Source: an uncultured bacterium (GTDB lineage Bacteria; Patescibacteriota; Gracilibacteria; Absconditabacterales; Absconditicoccaceae). From it: a stretch of 48,052 nt of DNA. Below, piece after piece: positions 23,883-25,472 of this stretch. The translations under genes were made by a program, and so were the position numbers. The stretch lies in contig CAMJDC010000003.1 of NCBI GenBank assembly GCA_946404285.1, forward strand, positions 1 through 48,052, in the 5' to 3' direction. Position 1 is the stretch's first letter. The number at the start of each line of letters is the position of its first letter. The notes under the pieces were generated by a model. The model saw only the letters and a list, made by a program, of their open reading frames with translations. It made no database searches and was not told where the DNA came from.

Positions 23883-24680
23883 TTACCTTGTATTCATTTT
23901 TTTTATTTTAGAACAATCAGAAATCAAACGAACGGTTTCAATAATGAATATAATAAAACACACAAACATATCAAAGGTAAAATGACTATCAGCATATATA
24001 TTATATTTCCGAATTCAAAATCATTGAGTTATCCCATCCAAGACCAAAAATATAAACCAATCTCTTAATAGATAGAGTATATATTTTCAGAATCTTTTTC
24101 AACATGTCATATTATTCTCTGTTTTATTATTAATATTTGTACGAATTCATAAATCATATACATTATCTCAGTTTGTTCATGGAATAAGATATAACCCTAA
24201 AGATATAATGGGAATTATTCAAATTATAATCCACCATCCAGACAATCCCATATCATGACACCTTTTTATTCCTCGTGGAATTCGAAACCAAAGAAAAATT
24301 ATAGACATGATAATTGATAGAATATTAGCATCTGCATCTGTAATAGGATTATCAACCCGATTACCAATTAATACTAATAAAAGTACAAAAAGATATTCTG
24401 TACAAAACAATATCACTGTATTCCTAAAAAATATCCGCCTATTCATTCTATTATAGTCGTAATCATTTATAGTTTCATCAAGTCAATTTTCATCAAATCA
24501 ATCCCCACTAAATTTCTTTGAGAAGGTTTTTTTCATTTGTATCTCTGTGGATCTGTAGTTCTCTGTATCATTAGCATTTTCTCCAGTCAAATTAACAATG
24601 GTTCAGCAATGGCGACATTTTTCTACAGTTTCCTTAATTTTTTCTCAACAATTAGGACATTTCTTATATAGACTTTTCAT
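23883..24680 (-). CDS. Zinc-ribbon protein with DUF805 membrane domain, 265 aa
   Basis: The N-terminus (about 1-30) is a zinc ribbon, YKKCPNCGEKIKETVEKCRHCGTI, with two CxxC pairs. A linker with NLTGENANDTENYRSTEIQ leads to membrane segments: TVILFCTEYLFVLLLVLIG and LSIIMSIIFLWFRIP. The latter flows into PRGIKRCHDMGLSGWWIIIWIIPIISLGLYLIP, the signature of DUF805. The function of DUF805 is not known. The C-terminus (after residue 180) adds another hydrophobic stretch (MFVCFIIFIIETV). Its zinc ribbon and linker are clearly related to those of the adjacent gene at 24754, so the two are tandem paralogs with different second halves. Gene order and 73-bp spacing suggest one operon. Confidence 0.85.
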
Positions 24681-24753: not shown

Positions 24754-25287
24754 TTATGCAAAAAATACCAATAAGAGAATTATTATGATAAATACTATTC
24801 GTGGAATTTAATATGCTATAAATTTTCCACTTTATGATGCTTTTTCTAGTTTAGTTTCAACAACATTTGGCGATTTACATTTTGGGCATATAACCATATC
24901 TTTCCTTCATATTTCTCCAAATAACATTAAAAGTGCTCATATAAGTCAGAATATTCACATAAAATCGGATGCTTTTGTTTCTCTTTTTCTCCCTCATTCT
25001 CATTTAAATCAGCAATCAAGGCACTCTATGTACGATTTGTCTAATGGTTTTCTATAATTTTTTATAGGTTGATTTTTGTTTGACTTTACTCAGTTTTTAT
25101 CAAATCAATTTCCATTAAATTTCTTTGAGGAAGTTTTGTTTATTTGTATTTCTGTAGATTTGTAGTCCTTTATATCATTAGCATTTTCTCAAGTTAGATT
25201 GAGAATAGTTCAGCAATAACAACATTCTTTGGCAGTTTCCTTAATTTTTTCTCAACAATAAGGACAAATTTTATAGTATTCTGTCAT
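24754..25287 (-). CDS. Double zinc-ribbon membrane-anchored protein, 177 aa
   Basis: The N-terminal zinc ribbon YYKICPYCGEKIKETAKECCYCGTI and linker NLTGENANDIKDYKSTEIQ match the neighbour at 23883. A second metal site is split around a short hydrophobic segment (IFGLIGALLMLFG): IECLDCGFKG on one side and VICPKCKSPNV on the other. The C-terminus ends in a membrane helix, IPRIVFIIIILLLVFF. The protein is therefore tail-anchored with cytoplasmic zinc ribbons. Its start codon is only 13 nt after the terminator of the structured RNA at 25300-25438, so this gene may be controlled by read-through of that RNA. No substrate or partner can be named. Confidence 0.8.
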
Positions 25288-25299
25288 TTAAAAAGAAAA

Positions 25300-25438
25300 A
25301 TAAATAAAAAGACGGCTAACTCCCGCTAGTCGCCAAACTATAGTCTTAGATATCAGTACATGATAAGAAAGATCAGAAGCTAACCGTCTTCTTTCACATA
25401 CTGAGAAAAAACAATTTTCTCTAAAACTACAATTTGGC
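25300..25438 (-). ncRNA. Structured RNA with predicted pseudoknot and terminator
   Basis: A promoter at 25445-25472 predicts a start at 25438. The first 12 nt (GCCAAATTGTAG, 25427-25438) pair with CTATAGTTTGGC (25332-25343; ten Watson-Crick and two G-U pairs). An 11-bp stem AGACGGTTAGC / GTTAGCCGTCT (25379-25389 with 25310-25320) closes around the second of these arms and is followed by a T-run, so it is also the terminator. The two stems interlock as a pseudoknot. A hairpin GAGAAAATTGTTTTTTCTC (25403-25421) lies in between, and TATCAtgtacTGATA is another small hairpin. No known riboswitch or RNA family core was recognised. It could be a free RNA or an attenuator of the zinc-ribbon gene that starts 13 nt later. 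Confidence 0.7.
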
Positions 25439-25444
25439 AGTTTG

Positions 25445-25472
25445 AGAATAAAGAAAATCTATTGATTGTCAA
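25445..25472 (-). promoter_or_regulatory. Promoter of the 25300-25438 RNA
   Basis: On the minus strand -35 TTGACA (25467-25472) and -10 TATTCT (25445-25450) are 16 nt apart. The predicted start is the first base of the 12-nt arm that pairs within the RNA. Confidence 0.7.

Follow-up and report, generated by a model that had tools for sequence, protein, structure and literature searches.

Gene control in the Patescibacteria is little known, and the lineages that host the element described below, which read TGA as glycine, are thought to be host-dependent. The closest described systems are the terminator/antiterminator riboswitches and attenuators, which resemble the element in having a promoter, a structured leader, a terminator-like helix before the start codon and covarying, mutually exclusive helices. 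Unlike the known riboswitches and attenuators, the element uses as its terminator-like helix a long-range pseudoknot of 12-23 bp into the apical loop of its core (the LR helix), and it has several unrelated output stages, no metabolic regulon and no match to an Rfam class. T-box leaders are also 5' leaders with an antiterminator choice, and a box in the element contains UGG(C), but the element has neither an Rfam T-box match nor a recognised specifier stem region, and none of its downstream genes is an aminoacyl-tRNA or amino-acid gene. Type III toxin-antitoxin RNAs of the ToxI kind show the same succession of promoter, pseudoknotted RNA, terminator and gene, whereas the element lacks short pseudoknot repeats arranged in tandem within a single transcript, and Pfam analysis of 40 downstream proteins revealed no ToxN-like nuclease gene. 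Integron attC sites share with the element a conserved fold of variable sequence, inverted repeat ends and cassette-like neighbours, yet differ from it in box sequence, promoter placement and the LR helix; the attC R box GTTRRRY is absent from the end of the inverted repeat, where nearly all members of our first alignments have GTTTGGC. By the features tested, the element is not an attC site, a type III toxin-antitoxin RNA or a T-box. The DUF805 RNA motifs share with some members of the element's family a zinc-ribbon/DUF805 neighbour; no such Rfam family matched the window, the permissive scan included.

The element upstream of a zinc-ribbon gene

The window, that is, the whole stretch of 48,052 nt that we analysed, belongs to a genome assembly that is 70% complete and comprises 81 contigs. 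Many genes in the window (1-48052) are full-length only when TGA is read as glycine (code 25), and no tRNA was found in it. The element lies on the minus strand, with its promoter at 25472-25445, a predicted start at 25438 and a U-run ending at 25306. The coordinates of the preliminary description had implied the plus strand, which we rejected because of its weaker fold: the minus strand folds at -51.0 kcal/mol compared with -29.4 +/- 3.4 kcal/mol for dinucleotide shuffles (z -6.27), and the plus strand reaches a z of -2.98. The features are as follows.

25467..25472, minus strand: -35 box TTGACA (sequence; base-by-base conservation in 71 members)
25445..25450, minus strand: -10 box TATTCT (sequence; predicted start at 25438)
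25420..25438, minus strand: P1 5' strand GCCAAAUUGUAGUUUUAGA, 19 nt, predicted 5' end of the transcript (19 bp with 25350-25332)
25405..25419, minus strand: P2, local hairpin GAAAA..UUUUC (minimum free energy fold; variable among members)
25394..25402, minus strand: P3 5' strand AGUAUGUGA (9 pairs, covariation)
25374..25393, minus strand: LR 5' strand AAGAAGACGGUUAGCUUCUG, within the apical part of P3, which also folds locally as P4 (20 bp with 25325-25306)
25355..25363, minus strand: P3 3' strand UCAUGUACU (fold and covariation)
25332..25350, minus strand: P1 3' strand with the near-invariant box GUUUGGC(GACU) at its end (alignments)
25306..25325, minus strand: LR 3' strand CGGGAGUUAGCCGUCUUUUU and U-run, terminator-like end of the RNA (pairing with the LR 5' strand; pattern matches)
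24832..25287, minus strand: zinc-ribbon protein of 151 amino acids, code 25 (TGA = Gly), whose gene has the RNA as its leader (open reading frame; Pfam)
23883..24680, minus strand: second zinc-ribbon protein, the next gene downstream, without such a leader (open reading frame; N-terminal similarity)

The promoter reads exactly as had been claimed: TTGACA (25472-25467) is followed by a 16-nt spacer and TATTCT (25450-25445) on the minus strand, and the last T of the -10 box lies 7 nt before the G at 25438 that opens the first arm of P1. Between the two strands of P1 stand the small hairpin P2 and then the long hairpin P3 with its apical part P4. On the 3' side of P1, GACUAG is followed by CGGGAGUUAGCCGUCUUUUU (25325-25306), which forms 20 contiguous pairs, G-U pairs included, with AAGAAGACGGUUAGCUUCUG (25393-25374). 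The resulting LR helix interlocks with P1 and P3 to give a pseudoknot. An interlocking of two stems had been described at the outset, with the first arm rightly paired to a stretch ending at 25332; both helices are longer than was then thought, P1 having 19 bp rather than 12 and the terminator stem 20 contiguous pairs rather than 11. GGCGACU of the P1 3' box can also pair with the LR 3' strand (the T hairpin), weakly in the window copy.

The RNA of the window copy is about 133 nt long (118-178 nt in relatives). It has no extra terminator, and its only terminator-like feature is LR, whose 48-nt loop is large by the standard of intrinsic terminators, a point against attenuation. The zinc-ribbon ATG at 25287 lies 15 nt past the aligned element and 18 nt past the five-U run; the spacing of 13 nt given earlier is obtained only if a later A/T-rich run is counted as the end of the RNA. 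The encoded protein matches the Pfam double zinc ribbon with an E value of 5e-6, just under the curated cut-off, and the second zinc-ribbon protein, judged by its N-terminus, is a paralogue of the first. A model search found no second member of the element's family in the 48,052-nt window.

Distribution and conservation of the RNA family

BLAST identified a second full-length copy in the window's genome and partial matches in sister species, and a pattern for the 3' box picked up 18 copies within the family, where the reversed-pattern control had no hits. Two covariance models were used, both of which leave out LR. Model R1, with P1, P3, P4 and a short 3' hairpin, was built from five relatives and recovers the window copy at full length (E 1.6e-9). 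Model R2, with P1, P3 and the 3' hairpin, includes the window copy in its training set; its matches fall in 36 of the 341 genomes of the class and in 21 of its 199 genera, and among 380 genomes drawn from the phylum it returned the window's own genome, one other good match and one chance match only. At a more sensitive setting (E 0.1 or better) the window's genome has 4 candidate copies and two others, G086 and G096, have 12 and 14. Scanning 85,000 named genomes located members in candidate division SR1, the Gracilibacteria and one Saccharibacterium. The covariance model search gives 70 convincing members, almost all from code-25 bacteria (SR1/Absconditabacteria and Gracilibacteria), together with the single Saccharibacterium.

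Several candidates were discarded. Hits of the genome-wide pattern scan in Janthinobacterium (L212) and Pseudoalteromonas (L217) were missed by the model, showed no extended P1 by eye and are attributed to chance, as is L249 (E 0.004-0.009), which lies inside an apparent coding sequence and has no LR. A 14-nt LR-strand pattern had 109 matches in viral contigs, which we attribute to chance given its shortness; a stricter family pattern had none there. No Rfam family reached its gathering cut-off at the element in the window or in 20 relatives, and the window gave no match in a permissive scan either. Among the titles and abstracts that open-access literature searches listed for riboswitches or structured RNAs in Gracilibacteria/CPR, none describes the element.

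Some copies are composites. The element L193 (in genome G004) combines the 5' flank and body of L186, the groEL-side copy of genome G000, with a tail and zinc-ribbon gene like those of the window copy, the junction falling in the shared GGAGTTAGCCGTCTTTTTA when it is compared with L186 and with window positions 25270-25450. L200 and L202 have the body in common and neither flank, and L201 and L206 have the flanks and a restriction-modification (R-M) gene in common and not the body. In one Gracilibacterium (L175/L219), reverse-transcriptase-like and small helix-turn-helix-like open reading frames, recognised by eye, end about 100 nt before the element, which is probably a coincidence.

The G-U pairs had been read as a hint of covariation, and covariation was found at both depths of alignment. 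With 27 sequences, 92.9% of the cells are paired compared with 75.5% in shuffles. With 71 distinct sequences (the 70 members and L249, which we judged to be chance), 90.7% are paired, compared with 66.1% when shuffled and 36-49% when slid; two-sided changes occur in 34 of 38 pairs, double-change cells number 649 against 203 in shuffles, and the covariation score is 0.604 against 0.185 shuffled and 0.07-0.11 slid. Relatedness is disregarded in the shuffle control but preserved in the slide control. Covariation is strong in P1, P3 and LR. The cells of P1 are 97-99.5% paired in the 71 sequences, and in P3 all nine pairs show two-sided changes, with 93.9% of cells paired; the counts for these two helices lean towards structure, since both are inside the models. 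LR is in neither model, so its covariation is a test independent of the fit of the alignment. LR reaches at least 12 bp in 68 of the 70 members (median 16, up to 23), and in a set of 28 members the best LR pairing of a copy with itself averages 17.6 bp, compared with 11.1 bp when a 5' strand is matched with another member's 3' strand and 7.9 bp in shuffles. At the base of P1, the pairs between GCCAAA and UUUGGC hardly vary, and their conservation must therefore have a reason other than pairing. The absence of homologues or of compensatory changes in related genomes, or an Rfam match to a known family, had been named beforehand as grounds against the structure; homologues exist, compensatory changes are abundant, and the window and 20 relatives gave no Rfam match.

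In 69 of the 70 members a nested model makes the P1-P3 fold more stable than folds with LR forced (median difference 11.75 kcal/mol), so that for LR to form, either the body must be loosened or LR must coexist with P1 in a pseudoknot; going by these energies, LR may exist solely in pseudoknotted form or fail to form. Two further structures were considered and dropped. The T hairpin between box and LR 3' strand does not serve as a universal terminator, having only 4 contiguous bp in four window-type copies and, in a number of other subgroups, a stability of -1 to -4 kcal/mol, and a triple helix between LR and the pyrimidine tract after P4 fails on unsuitable strand direction.

The promoter is conserved along with the helices. 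Among the 71 aligned members the -35 TTG stands at a fixed distance (T 90%, T 82%, G 62%), as does the -10 TAnnnT at -12..-7 (T 87%, A 89%, T 85%), and upstream regions lined up on GCC have TTG at -34..-32 with a preference for T at -1. Since this distance is constant, transcription in most members is predicted to start on the first base of P1, and the start exactly on the arm that was first pointed out for the window copy is a conserved feature.

Downstream genes, output stages and rival readings

A same-strand open reading frame of at least 90 amino acids starts within 150 nt downstream in 57 of the 70 members, compared with 27 of 70 for divergent frames upstream and 31% at random points. 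In many members only 11-20 nt separate the RNA from the ATG, too little for a further promoter. Among 40 downstream proteins, Pfam identified EcoRI-type adenine methylases, a Tsp45I restriction enzyme, an N6/N4 DNA methylase and a serine recombinase, and also S-layer-homology and other exported proteins, prepilins and zinc-ribbon proteins; further members lead to relatives of the EcoRI methylase that are obvious by sequence. The saccharibacterial copy leads an EcoRI-type methylase, which is followed by a relative of the protein found behind it in SR1. The zinc-ribbon/DUF805 link drawn initially is one context of the element among several, R-M genes, S-layer-type surface proteins and prepilins being equally common.

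Between the RNA and the ATG, many relatives have a canonical intrinsic-terminator-like hairpin. In several the ATG directly follows the U-run of this hairpin, and the gene is thus reachable only by read-through. LR itself runs directly into a U-run, and A's often stand ahead of its 5' strand. Mutually exclusive helices are general in the family (LR against P4/P3 and against the pairing of the box with the LR 3' strand), and nine relatives, chosen because the pattern was visible in them, have a four-strand series in the order P1 5' strand, box, a' (anti-P1) and box2 with the terminator. In all nine the box can pair with the P1 5' strand or, over 8-14 bp, with a'; eight of the nine also allow a' to pair with box2 over 5-9 bp, the GGC of box2 opening the terminator. 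In L259, GCC/GGC has become GCU/AGC in all four strands. A blind test found 17 of the 70 members with a downstream complement of the box that was equalled by at most 1 of 100 shuffles. In another set of relatives the terminator hairpin copies LR, so that the LR 3' strand could pair with either. The R-M-linked copies L200, L201, L206 and L191 have a second terminator hairpin; the sequence of its 3' strand, AGUCGCUAAAC, matches the complement of the conserved box GUUUGGCGACU, one G-U pair included.

LR with its U-run, the extra terminators before the ATG, the strand series of nine loci and the terminator copies of LR all argue for attenuation, and we lean, with moderate confidence, towards the element being a cis-acting leader RNA that works as a riboswitch-like transcription attenuator. 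Transcription would begin on the first base of P1, and the P1-P2-P3 body would fold co-transcriptionally, keeping the LR 5' strand within the apical part of P3. As the last 20 nt emerge they would pair with that strand, giving a 20-bp helix flush with the U-run that would act like a terminator and keep the gene off. If a signal held the P1-P3 body, LR could not fully zip and the polymerase would continue into the zinc-ribbon gene; such a switch would exploit LR's need for a pseudoknot with P1 or a loosened body. In relatives the same body would serve other output stages, the P1 3' box being captured either by the P1 5' strand or by a downstream copy of it, and that copy, when free, would break the canonical terminator. 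We infer the termination itself, which of the folds is ON, and the sensing of something; for the window copy, a held body would mean read-through and a zipped LR termination.

It is unlikely that the element is instead a free-standing small RNA, of about 133 nt in the window, with its own promoter and a pseudoknot terminator, the downstream gene being reached by leaky read-through and not a target. A start on P1 and an end in LR would protect both ends of such an RNA, up to 14 candidate copies occur per genome, and G086 has tandem arrays in which units with individual TTGACA/TATACT promoters follow one another at about 270-300 nt, most with a tiny open reading frame behind them. One array, L263, has no genes between its units; it resembles free RNA genes and counts against an attenuator. 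However, a same-strand gene lies immediately downstream far above chance, and a free RNA has no need of the terminators and anti-P1/antiterminator strands found beyond the RNA in relatives. These downstream genes, the extra terminators near the ATG and the covarying anti-P1/antiterminator arrangement lead us to favour the attenuator. The original proposal, which offered a novel riboswitch, an attenuator and a free small RNA as options, is partly supported and holds up as a class. A true riboswitch would require direct binding of a ligand by a conserved aptamer; the downstream genes share no common metabolic pathway and give no hint of a ligand, and few unpaired bases are invariant in the family.

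Tandem arrays were also observed in L270, L266 and L244, and these, like L263, have strong TTGACA/TATACT promoters and a tiny open reading frame behind most units. A four-codon frame (MDTS, MNTS or MDTT) recurs with synonymous differences in L263, L244 and L270 and might be translated.

Quite improbable, in our view, is a constitutive 5' leader in which P1 seals the 5' end and stabilises the mRNA or raises expression with no switching. The conserved start exactly on P1 suits this reading, as do the many downstream surface proteins, which may need high expression, but it leaves unexplained LR with its U-run, the terminators before the ATG and the mutually exclusive strands. We consider it very improbable that the element is a site of DNA recombination, whether attC-like or of another type, folding in single-stranded form and combining conserved structure with variable sequence and gene cassettes. 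Although the downstream R-M and surface genes are cassette-like and recombined elements exist (L193; L200/L202), a promoter precedes the copies at a fixed distance, the box is GTTTGGC where integrons have the consensus GTTRRRY, the pairs of LR lie beyond the terminal inverted repeat, and the breakpoint of L193 is in the LR 3' strand and not in the box.

Significance for code-25 bacteria

We rate the attenuator-like element as a new RNA family of a known kind, an attenuator/riboswitch-like leader, with an unusual core and in no curated Rfam class tested. This core, with P1 starting at +1, a long-range pseudoknot as terminator-like helix and interchangeable output stages, matches no Rfam family. 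We put forward only tentatively the broader idea that it represents a new class of riboswitch, or of attenuator responsive to a trans-acting RNA or a protein, in code-25 CPR bacteria, whose pseudoknotted core senses a single global signal such as host contact or growth state and acts through several interchangeable terminator stages; if so, that one signal would turn on surface protein, prepilin and R-M genes together. A leader present in many copies before surface-protein, pilin, R-M and one recombinase genes offers a testable handle on the regulation of host-contact and defence genes in these bacteria.
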